From an uncultured Psychroserpens sp. (lineage in GTDB: Bacteria > Bacteroidota > Bacteroidia > Flavobacteriales > Flavobacteriaceae), in the NCBI RefSeq assembly GCF_947500255.1, contig NZ_CANMRL010000003.1, positions 124,001-188,000 of the forward strand: a DNA stretch of 64,000 bases, given 5' to 3'. Below are positions 5,112-14,457 of this stretch, one piece after another. The position numbers were made by a program, and so were the translations under genes. The first letter of the stretch is position 1. Every line of letters starts with the position of its first letter. Under the pieces are notes generated by a model. It saw only the letters and a program-made list of their open reading frames with translations, was not told the origin of the DNA and ran no database searches.

Positions 5112-6689
5112 CTATTGCTTAATAAGTTTAAGTGTCTTAGTAGCACTCTTGTTGTATAGCCTCATAAAGTATACACCTGCATTCAATTGATGCATATCTA
5201 CGTTCTCAAAGCTGTTATATTTTGTAATCACTAGTCGACCATTAATATCTAATATATCTAATCTTTTTAATTCATTATTAGTTGCATTGATATTCAAAAT
5301 ATCTACAACTGGATTGGGATATACAGAAATAGTATTTAACTCAAAGGTGTTTGTGCCTAACGTAGCAGCACAATCTTCAGAATATACAGTACCAGCATCT
5401 TTCATCCAACTTGAATAATTCCCTAAACCATTTGTTGCTGCTACTTCATTGTCAACTTCTACACACGATAAATTAGTATTGTTATCGGCTCTAAAAATAG
5501 TCATGATACCATTATTCCCATTCTTAACATCTAAAGAGGTTAACGCATTACTAAAAGCTAATAAGCTAACTAAATCTGGATTGTTTGATACATCAAGACT
5601 TTCAATATCATTATTCTGACATTCTATTGTAATTAATTCTGGATTACTATTAACATCCAAGTTTAATATACTATTTCCACCGCAAAAGAGTCTTTCTAAT
5701 AATGGAAAATTAGTTAAATCTATGGATGAAAAGTTATTCCCAGCGATTTGATAATATATTAATACGGTTGAATTTAATAAAAGTGTAGACAGATTATTTG
5801 AATCTACAATAAGAACCTCGAGACTTGTACTATTACTTAAATCTAAAGTAACTAAGTTATTACGAGTTGCTCTAAACGTAACTAAATTGATTAAATTGTC
5901 TAGATAAATGACCTCAAGGTTATTATCATTAACCTGTAAGGTTTCTAAAGCGACAAACTCGTTGATACCAATGGCATCTATAATGCCCAAGTTCTCTAGG
6001 TTAATTGAAGTTACTGTACTTATTAAACTCTTATCAACTCTATTGTCATTAGCAATGCCATTACCTAAACTGTTGGATTCTAAATACGCTTCAAAAGCAT
6101 CATCTGGCACATAGGTTTCGTTTACGCCTAAAACAGAATAAACAACACTAGATCCTGCGGAGTATGTTGCTGGTAAGTTTATGCTATTGTTCCAATCATC
6201 TGCTAAAGTTGAGTTATCTACCTCTACGCGCGTTAAATTTGCATTAGAAGATATATTAAGATGATTGATATTACTATTATTACCATTGGCAATATTTAAG
6301 CTGGTAAGTAAAGGACAAGCATAACTTCTTAATTCAAATAGTTGAAGATTATTAGACAGATCCAAATTAACTAGCGGATTACTATAACAACGCAATCTTT
6401 GTAGATTTAAATTCTGACTCAAATCTAGAGTCATAAGATTATTATTATTACATCTTAACTGTTCTAATGCTTCAAAATCCTGAATCCCATTAAGACTACT
6501 TATATTATTGTCTCCAACATTTAAAAAAGTTAGCGTATTTATATTGTTAGTTGGTACTTGTCCATCTCCTGGAATGTCATCATAGGCTGCTAATGCAATT
6601 TCAAAGTTCGCGTCAGGAATAACAGTGTATTGGGCATTTGCCGTGTATGTAAAGACTAGTGATATTAATAGTAGATAAAAATGTTTCAT
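5112..6689 (-). CDS. Secreted leucine-rich-repeat protein with T9SS type A sorting domain
   Basis: I place the start at 6689, giving 525 residues beginning MKHFYLLLISLVF, a good signal peptide ending NAQ. An upstream ATG at 6722 overlaps a TAnnTTTG promoter box and would bury the signal peptide, so it is rejected. The mature protein carries two tandem modules. Each opens with an (I/V)PD-x-x-FE motif and continues into LRRs of the form LDLSNN-x-L. The last 75 residues are a type A C-terminal sorting domain (VYPNPVVDILNI ... GVYFMRLYNKS ... LKLIKQ), so the product is exported by the T9SS to the cell surface or medium. Function is likely binding; no catalytic motif is seen. It shares a promoter element with the next two genes upstream. 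Confidence 0.88.
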   Translation of the reverse strand: MKHFYLLLISLVFTYTANAQYTVIPDANFEIALAAYDDIPGDGQVPTNNINTLTFLNVGDNNISSLNGIQDFEALEQLRCNNNNLMTLDLSQNLNLQRLRCYSNPLVNLDLSNNLQLFELRSYACPLLTSLNIANGNNSNINHLNISSNANLTRVEVDNSTLADDWNNSINLPATYSAGSSVVYSVLGVNETYVPDDAFEAYLESNSLGNGIANDNRVDKSLISTVTSINLENLGIIDAIGINEFVALETLQVNDNNLEVIYLDNLINLVTFRATRNNLVTLDLSNSTSLEVLIVDSNNLSTLLLNSTVLIYYQIAGNNFSSIDLTNFPLLERLFCGGNSILNLDVNSNPELITIECQNNDIESLDVSNNPDLVSLLAFSNALTSLDVKNGNNGIMTIFRADNNTNLSCVEVDNEVAATNGLGNYSSWMKDAGTVYSEDCAATLGTNTFELNTISVYPNPVVDILNINATNNELKRLDILDINGRLVITKYNSFENVDMHQLNAGVYFMRLYNKSATKTLKLIKQ

Positions 6690-6719
6690 TTGTGTAGATT
6701 TAGTGTTTTTAATTTTTTG

Positions 6720-6727
6720 CAAAAATA
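6720..6727 (-). promoter_or_regulatory. -7 box of the LRR gene
   Basis: Read on the minus strand this is TATTTTTG, an exact TAnnTTTG match, 30 bases before the ATG at 6689 and 32 bases after the GTGTC direct repeat at 6760-6774. Confidence 0.55.
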
Positions 6728-6759
6728 ATGGCTGTATTATTTTGGCTCATAAAAGATGA

Positions 6760-6774
6760 GTGTCAAAAGGTGTC
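6760..6774 (-). promoter_or_regulatory. GACAC-N5-GACAC direct-repeat element, copy 1
   Basis: On the plus strand it reads GTGTCAAAAGGTGTC, two GTGTC half-sites 10 bases apart. It is followed on the gene strand by a TTATGAG block also seen near copy 2. It sits 32 bases upstream of the -7 box of the LRR gene, where an activator would bind. Two further copies precede the 6803-7816 gene and the TPR/LuxR gene. Confidence 0.55.
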
Positions 6775-6802
6775 GCTTATCTTTGTTAATGACTTAACAG
6801 CA

Positions 6803-7816
6803 TTATTTTCTATTATTGACTATAAATTGTTTTTGGAAAGATTTGCCATCCTTAGTTTCTATTTTAATGACATAAGTGCCTGTTGATAAGGTTGAAATAT
6901 TAATATGATTAACTATTTCAACCGATTTAGATGACAATACATTCTGACCAGCGGTATTATAAATCGCATATGTTCCATTAACAGATTGGTTAAATTGTAA
7001 AATGGAATCGGTTGGATTAGGAAATAATTTAAAATCTATCTCATTGTCAATAACGGTAGTAGCAAGTGTTTGTGCTGGTACAGATTTTATAATAATACTA
7101 TAGTGTCTAACTGCATAATATTGAAAATCATCAGCATAACGACCAGTGGTATTATCGAAACAATTATCTGCTAAAGACCAAATTGTATACTCGTTAGAAT
7201 TGGAAACAATAGACGAATAAATAGTCCATTGAAGACCCGATCCTACTCCAGTAGATTGTTCAAACTCAAGGTTGACTGTGTTTCCATGAGAATTAAAAAC
7301 ACTAAACTCTGGTTGTGTGCATTCACCTCCAAGTGAGTTACTTATTCTAAATCCATTTATTACAAAATCACCCGGCTCTTTATTTAAACTACCTAAATGC
7401 GTAAATACAGGCTTTTGCCCAATGATGTTTTCAAAATCATTAAGTTTAGTATCATCTATAGTTTGCTCTACATTATTTAAAGTAAATACTGTATTTATAC
7501 CTTTTGAAAAATTTAAATCTGCAACAAATTCGGTAGTGACATCACCTAAGTAGACTATGAAAACTTTAGTCTCAAAACTAGAATCATTTAAGCTATATAC
7601 TGGCAAGCCATTAAAATTTTGTATATCAGAAACTTGAGCTGAGCTAGCATCACTAATCACCATAATCAGGGCTTTATTATTCCCTGTAGGCACAGTAATA
7701 GTAACTGGTGAGTCTGAAGGTACTAAACCACTTAATGCCGTATTATCTTGAGTGATTTGAGCATTGGTACTGTATGTTATTAAACAAAAAAGTAACAGTA
7801 AAAAAGTAGGTTTCAT
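6803..7816 (-). CDS. Secreted protein with T9SS type A sorting domain
   Basis: A 337-residue protein with a signal peptide (MKPTFLLLLFCLITYSTNAQ). The middle (about residues 25-245) is beta-rich and unrecognised, with sparse cysteines (GGECTQPEF, LADNCFD). The C-terminus from about residue 262 is a type A sorting domain: FKLFPNPTDSILQF, then YNTAGQNVL, then STGTYVIKIETKDGKSFQKQFIV. The product should therefore be exported by the T9SS. It lies between the LRR gene and the TPR/LuxR gene on the same strand but has its own promoter element, so it is probably transcribed on its own and controlled together with them. Confidence 0.82.
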   Translation of the reverse strand: MKPTFLLLLFCLITYSTNAQITQDNTALSGLVPSDSPVTITVPTGNNKALIMVISDASSAQVSDIQNFNGLPVYSLNDSSFETKVFIVYLGDVTTEFVADLNFSKGINTVFTLNNVEQTIDDTKLNDFENIIGQKPVFTHLGSLNKEPGDFVINGFRISNSLGGECTQPEFSVFNSHGNTVNLEFEQSTGVGSGLQWTIYSSIVSNSNEYTIWSLADNCFDNTTGRYADDFQYYAVRHYSIIIKSVPAQTLATTVIDNEIDFKLFPNPTDSILQFNQSVNGTYAIYNTAGQNVLSSKSVEIVNHINISTLSTGTYVIKIETKDGKSFQKQFIVNNRK

Positions 7817-7839
7817 CGATTAAAGGTTTAAAATTTCAG

Positions 7840-7847
7840 CTAAAATA
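7840..7847 (-). promoter_or_regulatory. -7 box of the 6803-7816 gene
   Basis: Reads TATTTTAG on the minus strand, one mismatch from TAnnTTTG, 23 bases before the ATG. A TTTG stands 15 bases upstream, which is shorter than the usual 19. Confidence 0.45.
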
Positions 7848-7875
7848 CATAGCTAAATGTTTCAAACCCATAAAA

Positions 7876-7895
7876 GACACGTGTCAAAACGTGTC
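7876..7895 (-). promoter_or_regulatory. GACAC-N5-GACAC direct-repeat element, copy 2, with an extra inverted half-site
   Basis: The direct repeat is GTGTCAAAACGTGTC at 7881-7895. Here a GACAC at 7876-7880 abuts it, so 7876-7885 is also a perfect 10-bp palindrome (GACACGTGTC). It lies 33 bases upstream of the -7 box of the T9SS gene starting at 7816. Confidence 0.6.
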
Positions 7896-7902
7896 AAAAG
7901 TC

Positions 7903-9531
7903 TTAATTGAGCGATTGAATAAAATCTTCTATACGTTGTGCTTTAGGAACTTGCATTTTCTTCCGAATACGACGACGCATTGATTTAACGGAGTCTTCAG
8001 AAACATTACGAATAGTCATAATTTCTTTGACACTCAAGTTTAAGCGCAATAAAGAAGCAACTTCCCGCTCCCCTTTTGTTAAGTCAGAAAAGCGTGTTTT
8101 CAAAATAGTATCGAATGCTGTATTTGTAGCGTCTATGGTATATTGCAAATTAGATAATTTACTTTCTGTTTCAATTTGAAGCCTTAAATCATTGGCCAGT
8201 TTTGAAATGAATTCTTTAGCATCTGCTGTCTCATTATCATTTCTAATGCGATCCAATAATTCCTTTTTAAAATCCAATCGCATCGTATTATCTGCAATAA
8301 GTTGTTTAACATTAACTTCTTTATTTTTAATCTCCTGATCTAAAGAAAGCGTCTCGGCTTTATGATTTATACGTGCTAATTCAATTTTATTTCTATAATT
8401 TTTTCGTACTAATAAGGTGATCACAATCGCCCCAATTAATGTTAGAATAAACAAAGCTAAATACAACCATTTTTTGGAGCGTTCATTTTCTGTAATCAAT
8501 TTAGCTTCTTGCTGTTCTTTTTCAAAAGTATATTTCAGTTCTAATTCTTGAATTTGTGATACCGTTTCTATATTAAAAATAGAATCTGAATATTTTTTAA
8601 AGCGCTTATAATCTCTATAAGCTGCTCCATAATTCTCTAATTTATCCCATAATTGCGAACGCTTTTTATAGCCTTTTGCTATACGATGAATAAATTTTTC
8701 TTTCTTTGCTAATTTTATTGAGGAATCTACATATTTACCAGCCAGTTTATAGGCTTTAAGTTTTTCATAAACTAAAGCGGTATCATAGTAATTTCCGCAC
8801 AAAGCCAATTGTTTTCCTTTGCGCTTCGAATAATCGACGTTTTTTAAACTAAGATTCAAAGCTGCATCATAGTCTTTCTGCTTTCTATAAATCGCTACTA
8901 AATTGTCATTAACCTCTTGAAGTTGTTCGTCAGCATTAAGTGTATTAAAAATGGCTTTTGCCTTGTTATAACAAATCAATGCCGAATCTAATTGTTTAGT
9001 ACTACTATAAGAGACTCCAAGCATTAGAATCGCCTGGCCCACGCCGTGATTATTATCTAAAGCCTGATTAACTACTATAGATTTTTTAAAATATTGAATT
9101 GATTTACGATACTCTTTTTGTGACCTGTAGACCATTGCGATGTTATGATACACATCTGCTATATTTTTATAGTCTTCGTCTACTTCAAATCGTTTTAAAG
9201 CTTGGAGGTAGCTATCTAAAGCCTGAACGTGTTTACCCAAACGTCTTTTAAGCACACCATATTGAACTAATACTAAAGCCTTTTCATGATTAGTGAATTT
9301 TGTAGGTGTTTTATTAATTAATTCAAATGCATCATTAATGATATACTTTGCTTTTGTAAAATTATGATCCAATTCAAGTTCTCCCAAAGCCAACATAGCC
9401 CTTAACTTTTGAGCATCTGAATTAGCTTCCTTTAAATTACTTTCTAAAATAACTCTAACACTATCTATTTCCTGAGATAAAACTGAAAGTGACAAGGAAA
9501 AAAACAGGATATATGATATAATACATTTCAT
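7903..9531 (-). CDS. TPR-repeat, membrane-anchored LuxR-type transcriptional regulator
   Basis: A 542-residue protein. It has a signal peptide or N-terminal anchor (about 1-19), a series of tetratricopeptide-like helical pairs over about residues 35-320, one transmembrane helix near 350-372 (WLYLALFILTLIGAIVITLL), a coiled coil, and a C-terminal LuxR/GerE helix-turn-helix from about 478 (LTKGEREVASLLRLNLSVKE, then SVKSMRRRIRKKM). This is the Bacteroidota architecture in which a periplasmic TPR sensor is linked through the membrane to a cytoplasmic DNA-binding domain. Its ligand is unknown. A direct-repeat element lies upstream of it and of the two neighbouring secreted genes, which suggests autoregulation and local control. 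Confidence 0.85.
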   Translation of the reverse strand: MKCIISYILFFSLSLSVLSQEIDSVRVILESNLKEANSDAQKLRAMLALGELELDHNFTKAKYIINDAFELINKTPTKFTNHEKALVLVQYGVLKRRLGKHVQALDSYLQALKRFEVDEDYKNIADVYHNIAMVYRSQKEYRKSIQYFKKSIVVNQALDNNHGVGQAILMLGVSYSSTKQLDSALICYNKAKAIFNTLNADEQLQEVNDNLVAIYRKQKDYDAALNLSLKNVDYSKRKGKQLALCGNYYDTALVYEKLKAYKLAGKYVDSSIKLAKKEKFIHRIAKGYKKRSQLWDKLENYGAAYRDYKRFKKYSDSIFNIETVSQIQELELKYTFEKEQQEAKLITENERSKKWLYLALFILTLIGAIVITLLVRKNYRNKIELARINHKAETLSLDQEIKNKEVNVKQLIADNTMRLDFKKELLDRIRNDNETADAKEFISKLANDLRLQIETESKLSNLQYTIDATNTAFDTILKTRFSDLTKGEREVASLLRLNLSVKEIMTIRNVSEDSVKSMRRRIRKKMQVPKAQRIEDFIQSLN

Positions 9532-9551
9532 GTTATAAAACTAATGATTAT

Positions 9552-9559
9552 CAAAAATC
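9552..9559 (-). promoter_or_regulatory. -7 box of the TPR/LuxR gene
   Basis: Reads GATTTTTG on the minus strand, one mismatch from TAnnTTTG, 20 bases before the ATG at 9531 and 28 bases after copy 3 of the direct repeat. Confidence 0.45.
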
Positions 9560-9587
9560 AGAACAGAAGAAAACGACCATAACTAAA

Positions 9588-9602
9588 GTGTCAAAACGTG
9601 TC
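9588..9602 (-). promoter_or_regulatory. GACAC-N5-GACAC direct-repeat element, copy 3
   Basis: GTGTCAAAACGTGTC on the plus strand is identical to the core of copy 2. It stands 57 bases upstream of the TPR/LuxR ATG and only a few bases beyond the 3' end of rnpB, so RNase P RNA transcription runs toward it. Confidence 0.6.
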
Positions 9603-9610
9603 AAAAAAGA

Positions 9611-9950
9611 AAAAAGCAGATCTATAAGCCGAATTCTGTACATTTTCTTTTTTTGAGAAAATGAATTCTCAAAAAAAGAAAAGCCCTTATCATTTATCTA
9701 CGTTTACTATTACTAGCAAACTTTAGCTGCCTACCCTCCAACAATCGCGCGTGCAGCACTCAAGCGTTGGTATACATGACATTGCACCACATAGAGTTTA
9801 CCTGATTTCACTACAGCTTAACCTGTACATTCTTTCTGTTGCACTTTTCCTCACCTTACGATGGATGGCTGTTAACCACTATGATTGCACTATGGTGTTC
9901 GGACTTTCCTCAGAGGCAATAAATGCCACTGCGATAAGGCGATCTGCTTG
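9611..9950 (-). ncRNA. rnpB: RNase P RNA (bacterial class A)
   Basis: On the minus strand the transcript opens near AAGCAGATC, which pairs with GATCTGCTT at the 3' end to form P1. Signature segments follow in order: GAGGAAAGTCCG (P4 5' strand and CR-I), GGTAAACTC, GGAGGGTAGGCAGC, AGATAAATGA, and finally ACAGAATTCGGCTTATAG (P4 3' strand and CR-V). The RNA is the catalytic subunit that removes 5' leaders from pre-tRNA. Length is about 340 bases; ends are judged from P1 pairing and may be off by several bases. An unusual AT-rich hairpin lies near the 3' end. Confidence 0.95.
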
Positions 9951-12957: not shown

Positions 12958-14457
12958 TTGCTAGTTATAAAAAAGTTTTACCTACTCCTTGTTTTCATGA
13001 TAGTTCATATAAACACCAAAGCACAAACCGAAGTTTTGGGTGATTGGTATTTATACTCTATAAGTGTTGACAATACAACCAGCTATAACCAAGAGTTATA
13101 TACAATTGATTATCCTAATCTTAGAATTATTACCGAAAACGGTATTTCTACTTTTGAGGGTGGCGTCTGCAATGCTTATTTTTCTAATTATTTAACGATC
13201 AATACAAATACGATTGAAATATATGGAGTGGCTTCAACAAATGGTCCATGTAATTCTGATGCCATTCAACAATTTGAACATGCTTACTTCCAAATTTTAG
13301 CAAGTCCATTAGACTATGAAATTACTGGCACAGGTTTGGATGAAACTCTAGTGTTAACAAACATGATAACTTCAAACTATGCGGTGCTTGGAAGGCGATC
13401 TCGTCCTACAGATATTATAGGTGACTGGTATTTATATTCTACAACTGTTCAAGGCGTTAATCTGTATAATGCCCAATTTGGCAATGGTCAGCCTAAAATT
13501 GCATTTACTAATGACTATGGTTATACAAGCTTTTTATATGATGGTTTAAGTTGTAATGACTTTTTTGGAGAGTATATTTTTAATTTAGACGGAACGCTTA
13601 GAAAACTAGATTTTTCAACAACTTTGGTGTTTTGTGACAACAATAATACAGATGAATTTAAAAGCTCCTATATAAATGATGTACTTGGAGCTACAGATGA
13701 AACTACCTTTAGCTATGATATTGTGATGAATGGCGATGAACAAACACTCATTTTAACTAATACTGATAATTCCAATTACGCAACCTTTGGAAATACACAA
13801 CAAACGCCCAGTATGATTGGCGACTGGTTTTTGCACTATTTAATTGTAGATTCAAACCAAATCAATATTCCTGGATTTGCAATTCCTACGATAAACTTCT
13901 CTACGAATAGTGATAGTACTGGTTTGTTTTTTGATGGTTTTGCCATTTGCACTGGTTATGCTGGTAATTACTATTTCAATCCAGAACAAACCTTCAGCAC
14001 CGATGGAAGTTTAAGCGTAACATTGGGCGACCCTTGCGACAATGCTGAAGAAAACAACTTTGAGAATTTATATTTATATTCGGTTTTGGATACAGGAGTT
14101 AATAATGAATTTGACTATCAAATTACAGGAACTGGTGACGACGCAACGTTATCTGTAATCAACCTTTCTAATGGAAATCAAGCCTTTTTTGGAAGACAAG
14201 CCTTATCTGTTGATGATGTTGAATTGAATTTATCTCAACTTAAGATTGATCAAAACCCAGTGACAAATATCATAGATTTTTCAGAAGACTATAATGATGC
14301 CACATATGAAATATATTCTATATCTGGTAGACTCGTCATGAATGGTAACATCACGTCAAATTCACTACCTGTAATCCAATTGCAATCGGGATTGTACTTC
14401 ATAAAAGTATATAATTCAAGCATTCAATTTGAAACACTAAAATTTATCAAGGAGTAG
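12958..14457 (+). CDS. Triple-repeat secreted protein with T9SS type A sorting domain
   Basis: The start is a TTG at 12958; it is the only codon that keeps the whole signal peptide (VIKKFYLLLVFMIVHINTKAQ). The mature protein contains three tandem domains of about 130 residues, each opening with a GDW(Y/F)L signature (near residues 28, 154 and 286). Each ends with a D-Y-x-I-x-G-x-G-D-x-x-L strand pattern, a META/lipocalin-like beta arrangement. The last 75 residues are a type A sorting domain (LKIDQNPVTNIIDFSED ... GLYFIKVYNSS ... LKFIKE). Function is unknown; binding is more likely than catalysis. Confidence 0.8.
   Translation: MLVIKKFYLLLVFMIVHINTKAQTEVLGDWYLYSISVDNTTSYNQELYTIDYPNLRIITENGISTFEGGVCNAYFSNYLTINTNTIEIYGVASTNGPCNSDAIQQFEHAYFQILASPLDYEITGTGLDETLVLTNMITSNYAVLGRRSRPTDIIGDWYLYSTTVQGVNLYNAQFGNGQPKIAFTNDYGYTSFLYDGLSCNDFFGEYIFNLDGTLRKLDFSTTLVFCDNNNTDEFKSSYINDVLGATDETTFSYDIVMNGDEQTLILTNTDNSNYATFGNTQQTPSMIGDWFLHYLIVDSNQINIPGFAIPTINFSTNSDSTGLFFDGFAICTGYAGNYYFNPEQTFSTDGSLSVTLGDPCDNAEENNFENLYLYSVLDTGVNNEFDYQITGTGDDATLSVINLSNGNQAFFGRQALSVDDVELNLSQLKIDQNPVTNIIDFSEDYNDATYEIYSISGRLVMNGNITSNSLPVIQLQSGLYFIKVYNSSIQFETLKFIKE

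Follow-up and report, generated by a model that had tools for sequence, protein, structure and literature searches.

The DNA analysed here, hereafter the window, is a 64,000 nt stretch from an uncultured Psychroserpens sp. (NZ_CANMRL010000003.1, positions 124,001 to 188,000), in which three consecutive minus-strand genes are each preceded by an exact copy of one direct repeat, GTGTCAAAANGTGTC on the plus strand and GACAC-N-TTTT-GACAC on the gene strand (the element). The first gene encodes a membrane regulator with tetratricopeptide repeats (TPRs), a transmembrane (TM) segment and a LuxR-type helix-turn-helix (HTH), that is, a TPR-TM-LuxR protein, and the other two encode proteins with sorting domains of the type IX secretion system (T9SS). 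In gene order the features are the following:

9609..9950, minus strand: RNase P RNA (rnpB), ending directly 5' of element copy 1; context, outside the switch
9588..9602, minus strand: element copy 1, GACACGTTTTGACAC, preceding the regulator gene; exact match
9552..9559, minus strand: weak -7-like box GATTTTTG of the regulator gene, read by eye and outside the scripted box pattern
7903..9531, minus strand: regulator, 542 aa, TPR-TM-LuxR, from Pfam matches and hydrophobic segments
7881..7895, minus strand: element copy 2, GACACGTTTTGACAC, directly after the regulator stop codon and preceding secreted gene 1
7840..7847, minus strand: -7 box TATTTTAG of secreted gene 1, 33 nt after element copy 2
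6803..7816, minus strand: secreted protein 1, 337 aa, T9SS type A sorting domain, from profile matches
6760..6774, minus strand: element copy 3, GACACCTTTTGACAC, preceding secreted gene 2; exact pattern match
6720..6727, minus strand: -7 box TATTTTTG of secreted gene 2, 32 nt after element copy 3
5112..6689, minus strand: secreted protein 2, 525 aa from ATG, leucine-rich repeats (LRR) and T9SS sorting domain, from profile matches

All three copies are exact at the positions given for them in a first-pass annotation of this DNA, which had also proposed that the regulator binds the element. The regulator gene lies downstream of rnpB, which itself contains an inverted repeat at 9644-9681. The protein begins with a hydrophobic, signal-like N-terminus followed by the TPRs, and a single TM segment (residues ~353-379) stands between these and a LuxR/GerE HTH at residues 484-530 with the recognition helix SEDSVKSMRRRIRKK, where PF00196 (GerE) scores 23.6 bits, barely above its cut-off of 23.5. 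The Pfam matches at E 0.01 include neither a receiver domain, nor the autoinducer-binding domain of quorum-sensing LuxR proteins, nor the ATP-binding module of MalT/LAL proteins, and a PDB sequence search with the HTH alone gave no match at E 0.01. The layout is that of a membrane one-component regulator, with sensor TPRs and a DNA-binding HTH in one protein and the membrane segment between them, the TPR part predicted to be outside the cytoplasm and the HTH inside it. Concerning the two secreted proteins, both carry PF18962 and match TIGR04183 with 47.5 and 50.3 bits (cut-off 23), while LRR_4 in secreted protein 2 reaches 24.0 bits, under its cut-off of 27 (E 4e-5). A META-domain T9SS protein encoded nearby (12958-14457, plus strand) is without the element.

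The element is rare. The first-pass annotation had noticed no other copy in the window, and no further site exists there at up to two mismatches. A search at three mismatches gave 10 matches against a shuffle mean of 7.1, which is not above chance, so that the signal consists of the exact copies alone. The same three sites are the only exact matches to GTGTCAAAANGTGTC in the genome of 4.0 Mb and 13 contigs. Other genomes were searched with the exact-element pattern GACACNNTTTGACAC, its reversed form serving as control. Across 57 genomes (179 Mb, from rounded sizes; one control match) a regulator homologue at E 1e-30 or better was found in three, namely the window's own and two of the same genus with 97-98% identity, and the exact element occurs in all three and once in a fourth, G024. 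Additionally, 20 genomes with regulators of the RRR/RKR class, named after the R-x-R residues of the recognition helix, hold 37 exact elements in 100.4 Mb, one to four per genome, against one match of the control; 36 are located inside regulator loci and the last about 10 kb downstream of a regulator, before a 2180-aa T9SS protein. With three exact copies in 4.0 Mb and this clustering at regulator loci, the genome scan that had been suggested as a check reveals an element that is not scattered. The same counts bear on the idea that some other regulator, encoded elsewhere, binds the element and that the TPR-LuxR gene is merely one of its targets. Such a scheme could account for the 18 of 23 full-length RRR/RKR regulators without the element before their own gene and for the few elements without a nearby regulator, but 53 of the 54 relatives that have no close regulator homologue are also without the exact element, and different repeats stand beside different paralogues in one genome (see below), which makes it quite improbable in our view.

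Orthologous loci also carry the element, in agreement with the second check that had been suggested. Genome G010 retains all three copies and G004 two, its second intergenic region having shrunk to ~35 nt with loss of the third copy; the first secreted protein of G004 (L058 8598-9640) has a different C-terminal sorting domain. Copy 1, before the regulator, is identical at 15/15 positions to loci L159, L160, L162 and L163, and in the two Winogradskyella loci among them (L162, L163) only 30 and 18 of the 50 nt after it are identical to the window. The three copies could be imagined as relics of duplicated promoter DNA without a common regulator, given that the genes are adjacent, that two of them encode proteins of one secretion type and that 28 of the 50 nt after the element are identical between the two secreted-protein genes. 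However, the left flanks of these two genes agree at only 17 of 40 positions against 14 of 15 within the element, and the element is kept across genera, leaving this explanation hardly credible. Two further candidates from the flanks were discarded. The TTATGRG-like block that the first-pass annotation described after each copy varies in close relatives within the genus (TTACGGT, TTGTCGG, TTGTGGG) and is neither a second motif nor part of the element, and in the palindrome GACACGTGTC at copy 2 GTGTC is changed to GTGTT in L159.

A family-wide survey, in which regulators were sought by protein and not by element, covered 73 loci obtained from the 80 best of 104 matching stretches. Among the genera represented are Psychroserpens, Lacinutrix, Winogradskyella, Kordia, Aquimarina, Tenacibaculum, Polaribacter and Aureisphaera. 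The generalized pattern G..AC.{5}G..AC with an A/T linker is found there 128 times in intergenic DNA, which makes up 143 kb of the 1282 kb, and its reversed form 9 times; the figure of 128 overstates the places involved because near-palindromic words count on both strands. The intragenic counts are 37 and 22. For the comparison of helix and half-site we assembled 91 regulators from these loci, the window, L057, L060, L094 and L095, with one row per identical last 150 aa. The family signature in the helix region was required, which leaves G159, L061, L062 and other distant members outside the set. An element lies within 1 kb of 72 of the 91, and its half-sites follow the helix class. Specifically, all 30 RRR/RKR regulators have GACAC (29 GACAC/GACAC and one GACAC/GCCAC), and 11 of 14 RHR regulators have G[ACT]AAC, on the opposite strand and upstream of the regulator. 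The RYR class has G[CT][CT]AC in 30 of 46 cases and GACAC or GNAAC in none. At a finer level, S.RYR has an element in 12 of 25 cases (10 GCCAC, 2 GTCAC, 13 none), A.RYR has GT[CT]AC in 14 of 17 and T.RYR has GTCAC in 2 of 2, while GTTAC was met once each for M.RYR, V.RYR and MARLR. In 71 of the 72 element-bearing regulators, the information share on the half-site class is 0.85 for the residue before RxR and 0.80 for the x of RxR; the helix residues K, R and R do not vary among them, and the G and AC of the half-site are fixed by the search pattern. These correlations are suggestive of a specificity code. The residue after K (S or A) was rejected as the sole determinant of GCCAC versus GT[CT]AC, two S.RYR regulators having GTCAC. 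In a tree from a short search with the helix columns excluded, all 30 GACAC regulators form one clade.

Paralogues with a different helix keep a repeat, or word, of their own. The window's genome has a second regulator on another contig, 49% identical to the first, and GCCACTTTTTGTCAC precedes both this paralogue and its 2142-aa secreted neighbour, with a near-copy 22 bp upstream of the latter's GCCACTTTTTGTCAC. The word GCCACTTTTTGYCAC occurs in one of 54 genomes, the window's own, which bears the RYR paralogue. Across 21 genomes 22 copies of GCCACTTTTTGYCAC were counted in 16, the control giving 0 and five genomes having none; 18 lie inside regulator loci, three at 12-25 kb on the same contig, and one (G216) has no regulator signature in 16 kb. 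Such locations of the elements point to small local regulons with few distant members. In G140, which belongs to another genus, a GCCAC-class regulator stands directly after rnpB, with dnaX beyond (L089 6110-8109), and both its secreted neighbours carry the paralogue's identical word GCCACTTTTTGTCAC; two further loci of this genome carry GTTACTTTTTGTTAC. The G140 elements were missed by an initial 16-mer word search and were found afterwards by eye and by pattern. Separate words for several paralogues of one genome are seen in the window's genome and also at L164, L170 and L174.

The distance from the element to the core promoter is nearly constant. A strict TAnn[AT]TTG box begins 32-34 nt after 80 of 107 different elements (62 at 33, 16 at 32 and 2 at 34), against a mean of 1.7 in shuffled flanks, and 27 of the 107 have no strict box at 28-42 nt. 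The Bacteroidota -7 element is numbered T-12 to G-5 in the section of PMC6847099 concerned, and by that numbering our element occupies positions of about -59 to -45, immediately before the -33 region. This places its end ~45 nt ahead of the start site deduced from the -7 box. For the window, boxes had been proposed 28-33 bases after each copy, and this is confirmed with 33 and 32 nt for the secreted genes and ~28 nt, by eye, for the weaker box GATTTTTG before the regulator gene, where the spacing is shorter by roughly half a helical turn than for those genes. Start codons had been placed at 57-71 bases; scripted distances to the ATG are 70 nt (secreted 2), 64 nt (secreted 1) and 56 nt (regulator), so that the range stands in substance and misses by one nt. 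In the paralogue's own promoter the box, read by eye, is at 44 nt, one turn farther. A fixed spacing of this kind is that of an activator-type operator. Repression by the same regulator through the same element, either of all targets or of its own gene with activation of the others, finds an argument in the element's position ~5 bp closer to the weak -7 box of the regulator's own promoter (by eye), and NarL-type proteins can repress. Against this, an element upstream of the core promoter at near-constant distance, as in the 80 promoters, would be typical of activators, and we regard repression as unlikely.

Besides regulators, the genes behind the elements mostly encode long proteins with signal-like starts, and Por_Secre_tail was detected in 30 of 46 scanned C-termini. 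These 46 come from 51 complete non-regulator targets, minus-strand or N-containing ones being left out, as were 14 that run off a locus, and among them are small proteins that resemble regulators but have decayed helices, as well as genes located after the RNA unit described below (L203, L226). Some LRR targets end in a shared NMDG/NLDG plus HP-x-N block and not in the usual sorting domain (L057 8509-14934, L089 8323-14461, L091, L092, L164 9820-11649). Autoregulation seems to be limited to certain lineages: the element precedes the regulator's own full-length gene in five of 23 full-length RRR/RKR regulators (window, L159, L160, L162, L163) and in a few regulators of other classes. In Aquimarina, the regulator is often followed by a short TM-HTH protein without TPRs, itself preceded by the element, which may possibly be an amplifier or an antagonist. 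Short TM-HTH relatives with the GACAC element are located at L165 3410-4030, L169 9789-10409, L171 9728-10348, L177 9827-10447, and L166 and L167 9867-10571. Small proteins with a decayed-looking recognition helix are encoded at L170 9853-10443 and by the matching genes of L174 and L175.

For 15 GT[CT]AC-class regulators of Tenacibaculum and strain Hp32, the element is followed by a terminator-ended RNA unit, with 17 units in all. Units of this kind were noted at the following loci:

L199, L200, L202, L203, L206, L208, L209, L213, L217, L218 and L220: RNA units downstream of GT[CT]AC elements
L248 9252-9762 and L249 137-252: further RNA unit regions

The unit is 97-140 nt long, its start being assumed from the -7 box; it carries an intrinsic terminator and a conserved AATCCCT, which reads TTTCCCT in L217. 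Five of eight pairs in the terminator helix have compensatory changes, with 97% of cells paired against at most 53.4% when slid, and RNAalifold support is limited to this helix. In four of the 17 units the regulator gene begins 163-176 nt after the element, and these four may represent a leader with a terminator instead of a separate RNA. Searches with an RNA model identified a third copy in L202, preceded by GTCACTTTTTATCAC, a copy in T. agarivorans preceded by GTCACTTTTTGTTAC, and two copies in Hp32 with no regulator signature in 18 kb, one preceded by GTTACTTTTTGTTAC and the other by a degenerate form. With 150 candidates scored per genome, the unit was not found in G000, G004 or G010. In the model search of 25 loci, matches under 53 bits (the next being 34.5) were treated as noise, and matches of 38-44 bits (L250-L253) were rejected as they resemble ordinary terminators without the element. 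In the seven loci searched, no match to an Rfam family attained the gathering score, and the unit appears to be a small RNA that has not been described before.

Taken together, we consider it very probable that the adjacent TPR-TM-LuxR protein, a membrane one-component activator of T9SS surface-protein genes, has the element as its private operator. That the adjacent regulator would be the one to read the element is suggested by the paralogues, in which a different helix goes with different half-sites next to the paralogue's own secreted-protein genes. In the mechanism that we propose, the TPR part outside the cytoplasm would sense some signal, and the cytoplasmic HTH, as a tandem dimer, would bind two G-N-N-A-C half-sites exactly 10 bp apart on one face of the DNA. 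The HTH dimer would sit just upstream of the -33 region and recruit RNA polymerase to the neighbouring genes for T9SS-exported surface proteins, while the residue before R-x-R and its x would set the two variable bases of the half-site and thereby give each paralogue its own word.

Several observations weigh against this proposal. Among the 91 regulators, 19 are without an element within 1 kb (13 S.RYR, 3 A.RYR and 3 RHR), farther elements being present for some of the 13 S.RYR (2.1 kb after the regulator in L182 and 3.2 kb in L184). No shared word was found for the further G010 regulators L061 and L062, and the neighbour repeat of the G159 homologue has a period of 11 (GCTACC-N5-GCTACC). The lone exact element of G024, GACACATTTTGACAC (L232 6911-6925), lies near integrase-like genes with no regulator signature in the 15 kb around it; no regulator of this kind lies within ~7-8 kb of this GACAC element or of the single GCCAC element of G216. 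In the window, the regulator's own promoter departs from the common spacing by a phase of ~5 bp, and its control might be repression. Genome-wide, the loose pattern GNNACNTTTTGNNAC shows no enrichment (66 matches against 60 for the control in five genomes), so that the signal consists of matched half-sites, A/T linker, intergenic place and spacing. Finally, on the tree the helix classes need four changes and the element classes three, with only one independent pair for a test of their association.

The link of element to regulator drawn by the first-pass annotation is right in substance, and the element with its rarity and its linkage to the regulator holds up. The present analysis extends this by a rule for the family as a whole, separate words for the paralogues, the geometry of the promoter, candidate residues for specificity and the small-RNA branch. 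A wider picture, whose chances we judge to be even, is that the TPR-LuxR switches of Flavobacteriaceae would follow a readable code of two residues and two bases, forming mutually insulated switches each with its own surface-protein cluster, and that in Tenacibaculum the output would have been rewired from surface proteins to the putative small RNA, of which each regulator would have at least one. Membrane proteins of the TPR-LuxR type are recurrent in these genomes. With operator, promoter distance, likely specificity residues and target genes readable from sequence, binding, code swapping and the sensed signal become testable. The sequence rule also lets the regulon of each paralogue be listed, and it leads to a small-RNA family that a switch of this type would control.

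An aimed search of the open-access literature found no operator for TPR-LuxR membrane proteins and no description of such an element, although one may exist elsewhere. Among known systems, the HTH family is common to the regulator and to NarL/FixJ-type response regulators such as NarL and StyR (1yio), the StyR profile match being weak (E 0.08). In NarL, base contacts are made by residues of the same helix. Unlike the NarL/FixJ-type proteins, our regulator has no receiver domain and has TPRs and a TM segment instead. SARP-LAL regulators are not known to carry a membrane segment. They combine a LuxR-family regulator with a direct-repeat operator, as proposed here, but the regulator described in PMC5930380 is a large ATP-binding protein of Streptomyces, unlike a TPR-TM-LuxR protein. 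TPR proteins like the regulator are also found in the Porphyromonas FimS-type TPR histidine kinase and the BT3442 family of NCBIfam; BT_3442 is located in a cluster with a MACPF protein, and the section of the source that presents this cluster names no operator (PMC2954219). FimS is a kinase, unlike the regulator, and by score neither family is a match, both being far below threshold (57.6 bits against 600 for FimS-type and 35 against 940 for BT3442). ToxR and CadC likewise have the sensor and the DNA-binding domain on opposite sides of the membrane and act on local targets, whereas the regulator described here differs from them in its LuxR-type HTH placed C-terminal to the membrane segment, its TPR sensor and its putative direct-repeat operator.

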